Of a stretch of DNA of 64,000 nt, positions 49,745-60,648 are shown one piece after another. This stretch comes from Natrinema gari JCM 14663. GTDB taxonomy: Archaea > Halobacteriota > Halobacteria > Halobacteriales > Natrialbaceae. The notes beneath the pieces were generated by a model. The model was not told where the DNA came from, did no database searches, and saw only the letters and a program-made list of their open reading frames with translations. Where the stretch lies: positions 1-64,000 of the forward strand of contig NZ_AOIJ01000041.1 of assembly GCF_000337175.1 (NCBI RefSeq), given 5' to 3'. A program made the translations under genes and the position numbers. Position 1 is the stretch's first letter, and each line of letters opens with the position of its first letter.

Positions 49745-50329
49745 TCACGTTGGGTCGATGCGACCGCCTTTGACGATCGCGATCGCGGCGACGATCTTGA
49801 GCAGGTCGCCCGGGATAAACGGAACGACACCGAGGTTGAGGGCCTCGATCGTGCTGAGTTTGAGCATGTATCCGAGCCAGACCGTCCCGAGCGCGTAGAT
49901 GATGGTGAGCGCCGCGAGCAACACCGCGGCGAGGACCGGGACCGACGTTTCCGCGGGATTCTCGAGTTGCCCGCGACCGTGGATGAGGGCCCCGATAACC
50001 AGTGCGGCGATCAGGTACGCCCAGAGGTATCCCGCGGTGTCGCCGACCAGAACACCGAGGCCGCTCGTGCCGTTGGCGAATACCGGGAGCCCGACGGCCC
50101 CCGCGGTCAGATACAGTCCGACCGAGGCCGGCCCCCAGACCGGGCCGAGGTAGAGCCCCATGAGGTAGACGACGAGGACCCCCAGCGACACCGGGACCGG
50201 CGAGAACGGGATCGGAATCGATCCGACCATGACGGCCGCACCCATCAGCGCCGCGAGAACGGCCGCCCGCGCGAACGACCGGACGACGGCATCGTCGACG
50301 CGTTCCACCGAAGTCTGATTCGTTGCCAT
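49745..50329 (-). CDS. bioY: biotin ECF transporter S component BioY
   Basis: The 194-residue protein has about six transmembrane helices. The BioY hallmarks are ALMGAAVMVGSIPIPFSPVPVSLGVLVVYLMGL near the N-terminus, GLPVFANGTSGLGVLVGDTAGYLWAYL in the middle, and VVPFIPGDLLKIVAAIAI at the end. BioY binds biotin with high affinity and works with BioM and BioN encoded directly downstream. Biotin scavenging is therefore the likely role. Confidence 0.9.
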   Translation of the reverse strand: MATNQTSVERVDDAVVRSFARAAVLAALMGAAVMVGSIPIPFSPVPVSLGVLVVYLMGLYLGPVWGPASVGLYLTAGAVGLPVFANGTSGLGVLVGDTAGYLWAYLIAALVIGALIHGRGQLENPAETSVPVLAAVLLAALTIIYALGTVWLGYMLKLSTIEALNLGVVPFIPGDLLKIVAAIAIVKGGRIDPT

Positions 50330-50757: not shown

Positions 50758-53700
50758 ATGAGACGACTGCGACCCATCGCCGTCGTTTTGCTCACGACCG
50801 CGATGATCGGCAGCGTCGTCGCCCTGCCGGCACTCGGGAGCGGCCTCGAGCGCGGCGGGACGGATGCCGCGACCGACGCGGCCATTGCGTCGCCAGTCGG
50901 AGTCGAGGGGCAGGCGGCGCTCCAGAACACGAGCGAACGGGCGAGCGCACCATCGGCGACCGGACTCGAGTTCGAGCCGGTGACGATGGGGCCGTCCGCG
51001 ACCGATGGAGACACGCCCCCCGCGGATGGCGGCGCGAACGCACAGACGTCGATCCAGCAAGAGCGCGAGGATGTCGTGGAGTCGGGCGTCAGCGAGGGGC
51101 TCGCGATCGTCCAAGCCCAGGGCGTCGAGGTGACTCAGGAACAGCGAACGGCGGCGCTCGAGGGCGCTCTCGGCTCGGTCGCCCAGTATCAAAGCGCCGA
51201 GGCCGAGCAGGTCCAAGCGGCGACGACGGGCGCAGTCCACGGCGCGCTGATTCAGAACCAGTCGGTGAACGCGACGCAGCTCCAGCAGGCGGTCGGCGGT
51301 GCGATCGCCGGCGGGCTCTCTCAGTCCCAGTCGGTCAATGCGACCCAGTTACAGAGCGCGACCTGGGGGGCGGCCCACGGCGCGGTCGCGCAGCGCCAGC
51401 GCGTGAGCGGCGAACAGATGCAGGTCGCGACCCGCGGTGCGGCCGCAGGTGCCGCGAGCGAGGCGGGCGCGAACGATGTCGGCGAGGTGCCGAAGATACA
51501 GGAAGCCGCACAAGGGGCCGCTTACGGCGTGCTGACACAGTATCAGTCGGTATCGGTCGCGCAGCGCCAGCAAGTGACACTCGAGCACGTGGAACACGCC
51601 GCGGCCGGCGGAGCCGCCGGCTCGCTCGAGGGCAGTACGCGCGCGGCGATCGCACAGGACCAACGCGTCGATGCCGAGCAACGCCAGCGGGTGACGATCA
51701 AGCAGATTCAGACGGCCGCTAACGGCGGTGCGGGCGGTGCACTCGTCCAGCGCCAGGCGGTGTCGGTCGAGCAGACGCAGGCGGCGGCCCGCGGCGCGAG
51801 TCGAGGGTCGCTAAAACGGGTCCAAGCCACGCGACTCGAGCAGCGCCAGCGCGTCGCGACCACGCAGGTACAGGAGGCGTCTTCCGGTGCGGCGACGGGC
51901 GCGATCTCCCAAGGTCAGGCGGCGACTGTCGAACAGATTCAGGCGGCCGCTGACGGTGGCGCGGGCGGTGCGCTCATCCAGCGCCAGACGGTGTCGGTCA
52001 CGCAGATTCAGTCGGCTGCGAGCGGTGCCGCGGAGGGTGCGGTGACCGGTGCGAGACAGCGTCAGGCGGTGACCGTCGAGCAGGTACAGGCCGCCGCATT
52101 CGGTGCCGGGGAGGGGGCAGTGAGCCAGACGCAGGTAGTCGATGTGACGCAGATCCAGCGTCTCGCTCGCGGCGGCGCAAGCGGTGCGCTCGTCCAGACG
52201 CAGGCGGCGTCAGTCACGCAGATCCAGACGGCGGCGAGAGTCGCCTGTGAGGAAACGGCACAGGTCGTCCAGTCCCAGCGGATCAGCGTCACGCAACTCC
52301 AGACGCTCACGCAGGAGACGGCGGCCGACGCGACCGCGTACGCAGTGCAGGTGGAGACCGATGACGTGACGCGCATTACCCAGCGCGTCGAGGTCGAAGT
52401 CGTGCAGCGAATCGAGACGATCGACCGGATCGAGGGGACGGCCACGATCGACTTCCCCGATCAGGAGACCGAAGGCGAGACAGTCAGGATCGAGGACGTG
52501 TCGCTTTCGGAGGGTGGCTTCGTCGCCGTCTACCGAGATGCCGCCGTCGACGCCGATCCCGACGATCTCGTCGGGGTCTCGAGCGAACTCGAGGCCGGCG
52601 AGCACGAGAACGTCACGGTCGAACTCAACGAGTCGCTCGCGGAGAGCGACGCGCTCGTGGCGGTCGTCCACCGCGACACGAACGACGACGGGACGTTCCA
52701 GTACGCCGAGTCCGACGGCGAGACGGACGGCCCCTATGTCACCGAGGCCGGGACGCCGGTGCTCGACGGCGCGTTCGTGACGGTCACGGACGAACCGGAC
52801 GAGGCGAACGCGACCCTTTCCGTCGACGACCAGACGGGGGACGGTGAAACCCTCACGGTCGCGGCGGCGAACGCCTCCGTCCCCTACACCGTGACCGCGA
52901 CCTACGACGGCGAAACCGCCACAAGCGACACGTTCGCGGCCGGCGAGGAAGTCACGAACCGCTCCCTCGATCTGGAGCCGCCACTCGAGGGGAACGCGAC
53001 CGTCGACGTTTCGGTTCGCGCCGCGGCGGACGACGCAGTACTGGCGACCGACACCATCGAGTACACCATCACGGACGAACCCGACGAGCGCGAGGCGACG
53101 CTCTCGGTCGACGACCAGGAAGGCGACGGCGAAACCCTCGAGATCGACGCGGCGAGCGCATCCGTGCCGTACGTCATTACGGCCGAGTACGACGGACAAC
53201 GGGTCGACAGCGACCCCTTCGAGGCCAACGAGACGGTCGCGGACCAGATCCTCGATCTGGAGCCGCCACTCGAGGAGAACGCGACCGTCAACGTCTCGGT
53301 TCGCGCCGTGGCGGACGACGCGGTACTAGCGACCGACGCCATCGAGTACGCGGTCGCCGAACCCGATCCGACGGAGCCGACGGCGAACCTCACGGTGGCA
53401 GATCAGACGGGTGACGGTGAGACGCTTACCATCACCGCAGCCAACGCATCCGTCGAGTACGCAGTCACGGTCACCGACGAGACCGGGGCCCGACTCGCCA
53501 CAAGCGACACGTTCGCTGCCAACGAAACGATCGGGCCGACTGAGTTCGATCTGGAGCCGCCCCTCGAGGAGAACGCGACACTCGAGGTCGCGGTCGTCGC
53601 GGCGGCGGACGGGACCCCCATCGAAACGGATACCGTCGAGTACACGGTCGACGGCGAACTCGAGGCGTTCGATGTCGAGTTCACGAGTTGCTCGCGCGCG

Positions 53701-55182
53701 GTGGTCACTGCGTCGCTCGAAGCGGGCGATCAGGTCGCCGCGAGCACGGGCTTTTACGATTCCGCCGGCTTCGGGAACACGATCATCGAGGACGCGGTCA
53801 CCGCCGGTGACGAGATCGAGGCACCGTTTACCGGGACGATCGTCTTCGAGATCGGCGACGAACGCGACGTGACGACCGCGGGCGACGAGGTACTCGTCGA
53901 GGTCCCCGATTACGGCACCTTCGGGACCTACATCTCCGGTATCAGTTCACCGGAAGCGGTCCCCTTCGCGTCGATCGATTTCCCGAACCCCTCGGCGAGG
54001 GACTGCGACCAGGACGCGCGACCCGCGCTGCCGACGCTGTCCGTCGAGGAGACGACGCCCGCCGAGGACGGGACCGCCATCGACGTGACGTTCGGCTACG
54101 AGAACCCGAACGACGCGACGATCGCCGGCAACAGCCAGTTCGTCGAGGGGACCACGACCGACGAGCCCCCGTCCGAACTGGCGTCCGGGTCGGAGTCGTT
54201 CACCGTCGAGTGGACGCCCGAGAGCGACGACGAACGACTCGTCTGGGCGATGGACTTCGCGAACTACGGGTACGACGACCCGGTGACGGCGGCGACGCCG
54301 CCCGCCAGTGAAATTCAGCCGTCCGAACCCGCTGCGTTCGACGTCTCGATCGCGTCAGTCACCAGCCCGATCGAACGGGGCGACCAGCTCGTGGTCGAGG
54401 CCCAACTCCAACACGTCGGCGGCGAGGCGGGCACGCAGAACGTTACGCTCGCGATCGGCGAGACCGCGGTCGACTCGCAATCGGTCTCGCTCGAGCCCGG
54501 CGAAAGCCGAACCGTCTCGTTGACCGTCGAGACGGACGACCTCGAGCCCGGCGACTACCCGCTCGCGGTGTCGACCGATGACGAAACAGCGGCGACGACG
54601 GTGACGGTCACGGAGAGCGGGACGCCGGCCACGTTCGCCGTGAGCGACGTGTCCGCACCCGACAGCGGAGTAGCCGGCGACGAGGTGACGGTGACGGCGA
54701 CGGTCGAGAACCAGGGTGAACTCGAGGGAACGCAGCCGGTGGTCTACAGCGTCGACGGCCAGCCCGTCGCCGAGTCGACCGTGACGCTCGCAGCCGGACA
54801 GACGGCCGAGATCCCGTTCTCGTCGGCGTTGCCCGAGGGAGCGTCGACACATACGATCACGACCGACGACGATCAGGAGGCGGTGACGATCGAAGCGGCC
54901 ACAACGGAGCCCGGGGGAGAGAACGGTGACGCGGAATCGGACAGCGGCCCCGAGACATCACCTGACGACTCGGGACCACCTGACGATGCGGGACCACCTG
55001 ATGAGACAGAACCGTCTGACGATACAGGACCGCCTGACGACGCGGGACCGTCTGATGAGACAGCACCGCCTGACGATGCGGAACCGACTGCCGATGAGGA
55101 CTCCGACCCGGTCGAGACGCCGGGCGACGCAGCCGGCGGAGCCACGGAGGGAACCGCTACAACCGAAAACACCACCGGCTAA
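50758..55182 (+). CDS. giant secreted repeat protein (1474 residues) with Gln-rich 23-residue repeats, DUF7282-like and CARDB-like domains
   Basis: A Sec-type signal peptide starts the protein (MRRLRPIAVVLLTTAMIGSV). Residues about 95-560 hold some 14-16 copies of a 23-residue repeat with the pattern xQxQxVxVxQxQxAAxGAAxGAx (for example IQNQSVNATQLQQAVGGAIA). Residues about 563-677 match the haloarchaeal DUF7282 pattern as I recall it (FPDQETEGETVRIEDVSLSE, HRDTNDDGTFQY). Three 95-residue tandem repeats follow (about 678-965; LSVDDQTGDGETL, LEPPLEENATV). Then comes a unique segment, two CARDB-like adhesion modules (about 1190-1375), and a Pro/Asp/Gly tail. No C-terminal membrane anchor or sorting signal is seen. 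It stands alone, and its role in the cell surface or matrix is inferred. Confidence 0.85.
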   Translation: MRRLRPIAVVLLTTAMIGSVVALPALGSGLERGGTDAATDAAIASPVGVEGQAALQNTSERASAPSATGLEFEPVTMGPSATDGDTPPADGGANAQTSIQQEREDVVESGVSEGLAIVQAQGVEVTQEQRTAALEGALGSVAQYQSAEAEQVQAATTGAVHGALIQNQSVNATQLQQAVGGAIAGGLSQSQSVNATQLQSATWGAAHGAVAQRQRVSGEQMQVATRGAAAGAASEAGANDVGEVPKIQEAAQGAAYGVLTQYQSVSVAQRQQVTLEHVEHAAAGGAAGSLEGSTRAAIAQDQRVDAEQRQRVTIKQIQTAANGGAGGALVQRQAVSVEQTQAAARGASRGSLKRVQATRLEQRQRVATTQVQEASSGAATGAISQGQAATVEQIQAAADGGAGGALIQRQTVSVTQIQSAASGAAEGAVTGARQRQAVTVEQVQAAAFGAGEGAVSQTQVVDVTQIQRLARGGASGALVQTQAASVTQIQTAARVACEETAQVVQSQRISVTQLQTLTQETAADATAYAVQVETDDVTRITQRVEVEVVQRIETIDRIEGTATIDFPDQETEGETVRIEDVSLSEGGFVAVYRDAAVDADPDDLVGVSSELEAGEHENVTVELNESLAESDALVAVVHRDTNDDGTFQYAESDGETDGPYVTEAGTPVLDGAFVTVTDEPDEANATLSVDDQTGDGETLTVAAANASVPYTVTATYDGETATSDTFAAGEEVTNRSLDLEPPLEGNATVDVSVRAAADDAVLATDTIEYTITDEPDEREATLSVDDQEGDGETLEIDAASASVPYVITAEYDGQRVDSDPFEANETVADQILDLEPPLEENATVNVSVRAVADDAVLATDAIEYAVAEPDPTEPTANLTVADQTGDGETLTITAANASVEYAVTVTDETGARLATSDTFAANETIGPTEFDLEPPLEENATLEVAVVAAADGTPIETDTVEYTVDGELEAFDVEFTSCSRAVVTASLEAGDQVAASTGFYDSAGFGNTIIEDAVTAGDEIEAPFTGTIVFEIGDERDVTTAGDEVLVEVPDYGTFGTYISGISSPEAVPFASIDFPNPSARDCDQDARPALPTLSVEETTPAEDGTAIDVTFGYENPNDATIAGNSQFVEGTTTDEPPSELASGSESFTVEWTPESDDERLVWAMDFANYGYDDPVTAATPPASEIQPSEPAAFDVSIASVTSPIERGDQLVVEAQLQHVGGEAGTQNVTLAIGETAVDSQSVSLEPGESRTVSLTVETDDLEPGDYPLAVSTDDETAATTVTVTESGTPATFAVSDVSAPDSGVAGDEVTVTATVENQGELEGTQPVVYSVDGQPVAESTVTLAAGQTAEIPFSSALPEGASTHTITTDDDQEAVTIEAATTEPGGENGDAESDSGPETSPDDSGPPDDAGPPDETEPSDDTGPPDDAGPSDETAPPDDAEPTADEDSDPVETPGDAAGGATEGTATTENTTG
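51041..52380 (+). repeat. tandem 69-bp (23-residue) Gln-rich repeats
   Basis: Units such as SQSQSVNATQLQSATWGAAH and VQRQAVSVEQTQAAARGAS recur end to end, mostly 23 codons apart with some spacers. Each alternates a Q/V strand-like half with a small-residue GAxxGA half. Confidence 0.75.
52789..53652 (+). repeat. three ~285-bp tandem repeats in the repeat protein
   Basis: Units begin near 52789, 53074 and 53356 (285 and 282 bp apart). Each encodes DQxGDGETL, a VPY or VEY strand, FxAxE and LDLEPPLExNAT. The first two are the most alike. Confidence 0.75.
54955..55085 (+). repeat. Pro/Asp/Gly codon repeat near the C-terminus
   Basis: Repeated PPDDAG, PSDET and PPDDTG units encode an acidic, extended tail of about 40 residues. 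Confidence 0.7.
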
Positions 55183-55294: not shown

Positions 55295-55585
55295 TCAGTG
55301 CTGGTGTCCGGTTGCTTCGCCGAACGTGACGCCGAACCGCTCCTCGAAGAGATCCATCACGCGGGCCTCCTGGACCTCGAGGTCCTCGTCGACGTCCTCG
55401 CCGTGGTGGACGAGATGGTGGGCGCGGCTGGCAAAGGACAACAACACGACATCGCCGACGGTTTCGGCGTCGCTTTGGTCACCCTCGGCCACGAGGTCGA
55501 CGAGACCGGACGGGACCGTGATTTCGTCGGTTGCGCCGTCGTCGGAACTGATCGAGAACGTCGTCGTCTGAACGTCGTCGCTCAT
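55295..55585 (-). CDS. small haloarchaeal conserved protein (DUF7545-like)
   Basis: The 96-residue acidic protein starts MSDDVQTTTFSISSDDGATD. A helix-rich C-terminus RAHHLVHHGEDVDEDLEVQEARVMDLFEERFGVTFGEATGHQH has a His-rich patch. The pattern matches a short haloarchaeal family I recall as DUF7545; the number is from memory. Function unknown. It converges with the repeat protein gene. Confidence 0.75.
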   Translation of the reverse strand: MSDDVQTTTFSISSDDGATDEITVPSGLVDLVAEGDQSDAETVGDVVLLSFASRAHHLVHHGEDVDEDLEVQEARVMDLFEERFGVTFGEATGHQH

Positions 55586-55710: not shown

Positions 55711-55854
55711 ATGCCATCCGTCGAACTCGAGGAGGAGACAATCGACCGACTGGAGGCACTGCGCGTCGACGACGAGTCATACGACGAGCTCGTCAACGAA
55801 CTCATCAACATCTACGAAACGAGCGAATACACGCTCTTTCACGCCGGCGACTGA
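55711..55854 (+). CDS. very small acidic protein (47 residues, DUF7557-like)
   Basis: The product (MPSVELEEETIDRLEALRVD start, DESYDELVNELINIYETSEY middle) looks like a short ribbon-helix-helix-type or antitoxin-like protein common in haloarchaea. I recall the family as DUF7557; the label is from memory. A longer upstream in-frame extension has no conserved sequence, so the start at 55711 is used. Confidence 0.7.
   Translation: MPSVELEEETIDRLEALRVDDESYDELVNELINIYETSEYTLFHAGD

Positions 55855-57657: not shown

Positions 57658-60648
<2,991 letters not shown>

Follow-up and report, generated by a model that had tools for sequence, protein, structure and literature searches.

A conserved repeat domain, predicted to be all-helical, in a large predicted-exported protein of Natrialbaceae

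Results

The locus and its product

The window (the whole stretch of DNA that was analyzed, 64,000 nucleotides from Natrinema gari JCM 14663) carries on its forward strand an open reading frame at positions 50758-55182, whose product is 1474 amino acids long; the first-pass annotation had given the same coordinates and length. The gene and its parts are as follows.

50758..55182, + strand: whole gene of a predicted exported repeat protein; the ATG start is kept in orthologs as MRRxR/MSRR...
50758..50826, + strand: N-terminal export signal (predicted signal peptide or possible signal anchor) with the motif SVVALPALG, conserved in orthologs
50827..51051, + strand: low-complexity N-terminal linker, poorly conserved (dN/dS 0.31-0.85)
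51052..51132, + strand: N-cap helix of the repeat block, REDxVESGVxEGxxxVQxQG, found in all aligned orthologs (predicted, helix 2-22 of the model)
51133..52368, + strand: 16 repeat units, [ET]Q[IV]QxAAxGAAxGA[LV]xQxQxV[STN]V (AlphaFold2, AF2, predicts a helix and a loop for units 1-5)
51238..51525, + strand: invariant patch H161, W203, H207, Y256 (with E249 and Q252), conserved in 55 of 55 sequences, W/Y/F and Y/F being allowed at the aromatic positions
52441..52782, + strand: DUF7282 (PF23951), from Pfam
52786..53658, + strand: three repeats of about 95 residues, found by TRF, with copy number differing among species
53659..54327, + strand: two more stalk segments (residues 968-1190), conserved in most Natrialbaceae
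54328..54888, + strand: CARDB modules (PF07705, from Pfam), one to three in orthologs
54898..55179, + strand: acidic, Pro/Asp-rich low-complexity tail with no transmembrane segment in the hydropathy scan

All the C-terminal parts named in the first-pass annotation were recovered by Pfam and TRF, that is, the DUF7282 domain (residues 562-675; E-value 1.7e-35, 122 bits against a gathering cutoff of 27), three 95-residue repeats (a tandem repeat of about 285 bp, with copies about 80% identical at best), CARDB (residues 1295-1377; E-value 2.6e-7) and the acidic Pro/Asp tail. A homologue of the first of the two stalk segments is encoded at another place in the genome (C30). Complete Natrialbaceae orthologs are 1141-1713 amino acids long. 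Other DUF7282-like proteins of the same genome are encoded at C30:148407, C33:155687 and C51:185112, in frames of 234, 600 and 760 amino acids; none of these three matches the repeat block, and a search of one literature library for DUF7282 found nothing.

Sequence pattern of the repeat block

The repeat array occupies residues 99-537 and consists, as defined by its motif, of a cap (residues 99-125) followed by 16 units. The 23-residue period is real, self-identity at lag 23 being 0.249 compared with at most 0.173 in 500 shuffles. Thus, the earlier description of the block as tandem 23-residue units is correct on average, but only 8 of the 16 units have exactly this length, while the others are 24-39 residues long and themselves conserved. 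The spacings in order are 24, 23, 23, 23, 26, 31, 39, 23, 31, 23, 23, 26, 23, 23, 25 and 26.

The block is near neutral (9% acidic and 7% basic residues), rich in Gln (16%) and Ala (20%) and almost free of Pro, whereas the domains downstream of it are 17-32% acidic. Each unit contains four near-invariant Gln. In particular, Q17, Q19, V21 and V23 are conserved, while positions 18, 20 and 22 vary, so that conservation in positions 17-23 (QxQxVxV) has a 180-degree period (p 0.03-0.06). Position 22 is Ser, Thr, Asn or Asp in 89% of 319 exact units, the pattern of a helix N-cap, with positions 17-22 forming a loop. In positions 1-16, the Fourier test of conservation shows no significant helix period of 100 degrees (p 0.23), the top peak being at 165 degrees.

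Searches of Pfam, NCBIfam, PHROGs and PDB sequences yielded no match to the block, in agreement with the first-pass statement that the repeats belong to no named family, and our literature searches on haloarchaeal repeat proteins found no description of this one.

The commonest indel of the conserved N-terminal part is an 8-residue QxQxVxxx element, inserted or multiplied in three orthologs; such octads are also seen in the window protein (e.g. residues 261-275 and 300-314). Arrays of the 23-residue unit that are additional, shorter or rearranged occur at four other loci, and second matches were found in four genomes; in such arrays of some genomes the number of units does vary.

Predicted fold of the block

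AF2 modelling of residues 99-245 (the first 147 residues, about a third of the block) used 63 alignment rows, including sequences from other families and register-shifted windows. The best model (pLDDT 88.9, pTM 0.88) has helices at its residues 2-22, 29-43, 51-67, 74-89, 97-113 and 120-141 and zero strands, with one alpha helix and a 6-residue loop per unit. Two of the five models were good (pLDDT 88.9 and 87.7), the other three having pLDDT of 36-40. For 592 residues covering the full block, pLDDT was 38.6, with helix-loop-helix in the first 90 residues. Foldseek searches of PDB and BFVD found nothing at E <= 0.001; among PDB entries, the designed repeat DHR10 gave the highest TM-score with the block model, 0.48.

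According to this model, the block is a helical-repeat domain of an undescribed type rather than a beta structure. Since the Fourier test is not significant, the evidence for helices is the AF2 model together with the capping pattern. In the first-pass annotation, the repeats had been read as alternating Q-x-Q-x-V strands of a beta-solenoid or amyloid-like fibre. The alternation is real, and its 180-degree period would suit strands, but the predicted structure is all-alpha and position 22 carries a capping-box pattern, which makes such a fibre very improbable; we have rejected it and take the Q-x-Q-x-V segment, on the strength of the model, as a linker followed by a helix N-cap.

More tentatively, and with some doubt, we suggest that the block may represent a new fold, in which each turn of a parallel solenoid contains just one helix. 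A 16-residue helix would run one way and a 7-residue extended QxQxVxV segment would lead back, and columns of glutamine side chains, replacing the backbone beta bonds, would tie the return segments together. This reading fits the similar lengths of the two parts (16 x 1.5 A and 7 x 3.3 A), the one-sidedness of the helical wheel (variable face 1/5/8/12/16, small residues on the opposite flanks) and the empty structural searches. If true, it would be a low-charge route to a stable extracellular domain in saturated brine.

Distribution and genomic neighbourhood

Of 125 Natrialbaceae genomes, 103 (about 82%), representing 26 of 29 genera, carry the block. In the class-level sample it was found in 111 of 391 genomes, some of them from other families of the same order (among these carriers are Halorussus, Haladaptatus, Halosimplex and Halorarius), and in the phylum-level sample of 393 genomes there was no match outside the order. 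The closest named loci are those of N. altunense and N. pallidum, with 93% over the block. This conserved domain is new to Pfam, NCBIfam and PDB. None of the viral contigs and phages searched encodes the block, and two haloarchaeal plasmids carry partial copies, both annotated as 'hypothetical protein'; a viral or plasmid origin was therefore rejected.

In Natrialbaceae, the gene lies between bioN-bioM-bioY and DUF7545-DUF5799 in nearly all loci with enough flanking sequence to show it, while in other families the block genes are at unrelated loci (twelve loci). Both bioY and DUF7545 are kept in all 16 Natrialbaceae genomes studied that lack the gene, and in 9 of these the two genes share one orientation and are separated by 91-360 bp, forming a clean empty site (the flanks in the window are 49745-50329 and 55295-55585). 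Clean empty sites in some lineages mean that the gene is dispensable, which is all that such losses show. The gene is vertically kept, not essential, and has no functional tie to biotin transport; such a link was rejected, as the gene and bioMNY each occur without the other.

Two more frames were noted nearby. A 47-residue one (55711-55854, + strand; MPSVELEEETIDRLEALRVDDESYDELVNELINIYETSEYTLFHAGD), antitoxin-like in appearance, lies between the DUF7545 and DUF5799 genes. In a 996-residue one (57658-60645, + strand), an ABC ATPase plus oligo_HPY unit occurs twice within a single chain, which looks like a fusion of DppD and DppF; SBP_bac_5 and BPD_transp_1 genes follow it.

Conserved head and variable stalk

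Among 37 Natrialbaceae orthologs, the block module (the head) has a length of 463.9 +/- 5.9 amino acids, compared with 878 +/- 124 for the rest of the protein. A given unit of the window protein and the corresponding units of other species have identity of 0.68-0.88; the mean between different units of the window protein is 0.40. Moreover, the odd unit spacings (26, 28/26, 25) recur at equivalent positions of the array in Halorussus and Haladaptatus. Diagonal matching of units between families is clear for some of them only, e.g. KIQEAAQG-A/S-AYG, and hence positional homology between families rests mainly on the shared odd spacings and the cap.

The dN/dS ratio is 0.18-0.24 in the block, 0.18-0.41 in the 95-residue repeats and 0.44-0.53 in the tail, which together with the N-terminal linker is the least constrained part. 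The head is under purifying selection and its length is frozen. The number of repeats also appears to be frozen rather than polymorphic, unlike that of a simple fibre repeat. The C-terminal side depends on the lineage: some relatives have DUF7282 arrays and Thr-rich stalks, others TSP3 repeats joined to a CAP domain or right-handed beta-helices, and in yet others there is nothing but a Thr-rich stalk.

Export, anchoring and glycosylation

The N-terminal hydrophobic segment is the only one that the hydropathy scan detects in the protein. Its end, ...SVVALPLLGGG, is strongly conserved in orthologs, which a simple signal peptide would not usually show, and its sequence fits either a signal peptide cleaved after VxA or an uncleaved signal anchor. 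The same scan found no C-terminal transmembrane segment in the window protein or in any Natrialbaceae ortholog examined, whereas in several relatives from other families the last segment is hydrophobic and accompanied by basic residues, as expected of a C-terminal membrane anchor. Hence the absence of a visible anchor, reported in the first-pass annotation, holds for Natrialbaceae and does not extend to homologues in other families. The protein contains 19 N-glycosylation sequons, against 5.3 expected, with 16 of the 19 outside the block; this excess would fit an exported glycoprotein whose head is mostly bare.

A candidate binding surface

Positions H161, aromatic 203 (Trp, Tyr or Phe), H207, E249, Q252, aromatic 256 (Tyr or Phe) and K315 are conserved in all 55 sequences compared, including eight from other families. 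The whole block has 10 His and aromatic residues. The four that belong to the patch sit on units 2, 4 and 6; units 3 and 5, which lie between, carry mostly small residues there. The helical wheel suggests that positions 1, 5, 8, 12 and 16 of the unit face outward, and most of these vary more than other helix positions. The patch formed by H161, 203, H207 and 256, likely exposed according to the wheel, is the best candidate for a binding site.

Discussion

Possible function of the protein

The explanation that we prefer, at roughly even confidence, is that the protein resembles a fibrillar adhesin, with a helical-repeat head of a novel type carried by a stalk whose modules are exchangeable. A rigid head of fixed length, with about 17 single-helix repeats (residues 99-537), would be displayed at the cell surface after export. 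Its stalk, which is variable, would consist of beta-sandwich-type modules (DUF7282, the 95-residue repeats, CARDB) with the acidic tail, and the head would touch its partner, which might be a second cell, a glycan, a polymer of the matrix or the S-layer, via the invariant His/aromatic patch. The near-invariant glutamines may form ladders that bridge neighbouring repeats and could keep this low-charge domain folded in brine. Against an adhesive role, the window protein has no anchor, and the head, consisting itself of repeats, could be a mere spacer.

It is less probable that the protein is a structural scaffold, with the helical block self-associating laterally through Gln ladders and Ala/Gly faces into a sheet or fibre accessory to the matrix or S-layer, while the C-terminal modules decorate the assembly and no specific ligand is bound. 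The near-neutral, Pro-free, Ala/Gly/Gln-rich composition of the block within an otherwise acidic protein, its four Gln per unit, the frozen length and the strong constraint over the entire block beyond the patch would all suit this. Still, a polymer repeat usually tolerates changes of copy number, of which there are hardly any in Natrialbaceae orthologs, and the invariant patch is confined to units 2-6.

The polarity could also be reversed, which we consider unlikely. In that case the SVVALPLLGGG segment would be an uncleaved signal anchor, the helical block the membrane-proximal base or an S-layer spacer, and the variable C-terminal modules the outer, interacting end. Such an arrangement agrees with the conservation of the segment's c-region, unusual for a signal peptide, with the missing C-terminal anchor in all Natrialbaceae orthologs examined and with the position of the variable modules. 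On the other hand, a signal peptidase site (VxA) would fit just before LP, and Halorussus, Halorarius and other relatives combine ordinary-looking signal sequences with C-terminal transmembrane anchors.

Almost certainly, the protein is not an enzyme acting outside the cell and does not bind nutrients there, for instance in connection with the biotin transporter BioY-BioM-BioN encoded next to it, since, despite the location of the gene between bioY and DUF7545 in Natrialbaceae and the His, Glu and Gln of the patch, other families carry it at unrelated loci, BioY and DUF7545 are adjacent without it in several genera, and Pfam finds no catalytic family in the window protein.

The first-pass suggestion of an undescribed surface or matrix component has held up insofar as an undescribed repeat family occurs in a predicted-exported protein of surface or matrix type. 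To our knowledge, little is known about how haloarchaea contact surfaces and each other beyond pili and the S-layer, and here is a large predicted-exported protein kept by most sampled Natrialbaceae. If the fold prediction is right, the block would be a novel solution for building a helical repeat, one in which a near-neutral Gln/Ala/Gly domain functions in a habitat whose proteins are normally very acidic.

Comparison with known systems

Halomucin and other large surface glycoproteins of haloarchaea are large exported proteins with many sequons and low-complexity parts. By this description the window protein, large, predicted to be exported and also having many sequons and low-complexity parts, resembles them, although we know of no counterpart of its conserved head there.

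As in alpha-solenoids and designed helical repeats (DHR8 and DHR10, PDB 5cwf and 5cwg; weak matches, TM-score up to 0.48), the block is predicted to be an all-helical array, its tandem units being stacked as one continuous domain in the model of the first 147 residues. However, it has one helix per 23-residue unit instead of a two-helix hairpin, and its linkers are rich in Gln. Alpha-solenoid families (TPR, HEAT, ARM, ANK, PPR etc.) have no Pfam match in the block and no Foldseek match at E <= 0.001.

The definition of fibrillar adhesins comprises length, an adhesive region, a stalk and an anchor, and anchors were found in about half of the positive training set (PMC9210967). Like them (PMC8286594, PMC9210967), the window protein is a long, predicted-exported multidomain protein (1474 amino acids, the length criterion being over about 1000), with an N-terminal conserved region distal to stalk modules and a stalk of repeated folded domains (three 95-residue repeats, CARDB, DUF7282); a C-terminal membrane anchor is seen in several relatives and not in the window protein. 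The differences are that it is archaeal and that its head is an undescribed helical repeat array with a putative adhesive role. As no recognised adhesive domain was found in Pfam or NCBIfam searches, which leave the head unclassified, we do not claim membership among fibrillar adhesins.

Periscope proteins (SasG, Rib, Sgo_0707; PMC8201768) have an N-terminal functional region and a stalk of highly identical repeats, the number of which varies among strains. The family described here similarly has a conserved N-terminal head on a stalk with a variable module number, but the variation seen in our comparison is between species, and the modules, with DNA identity of about 80% at best, are not near-identical.
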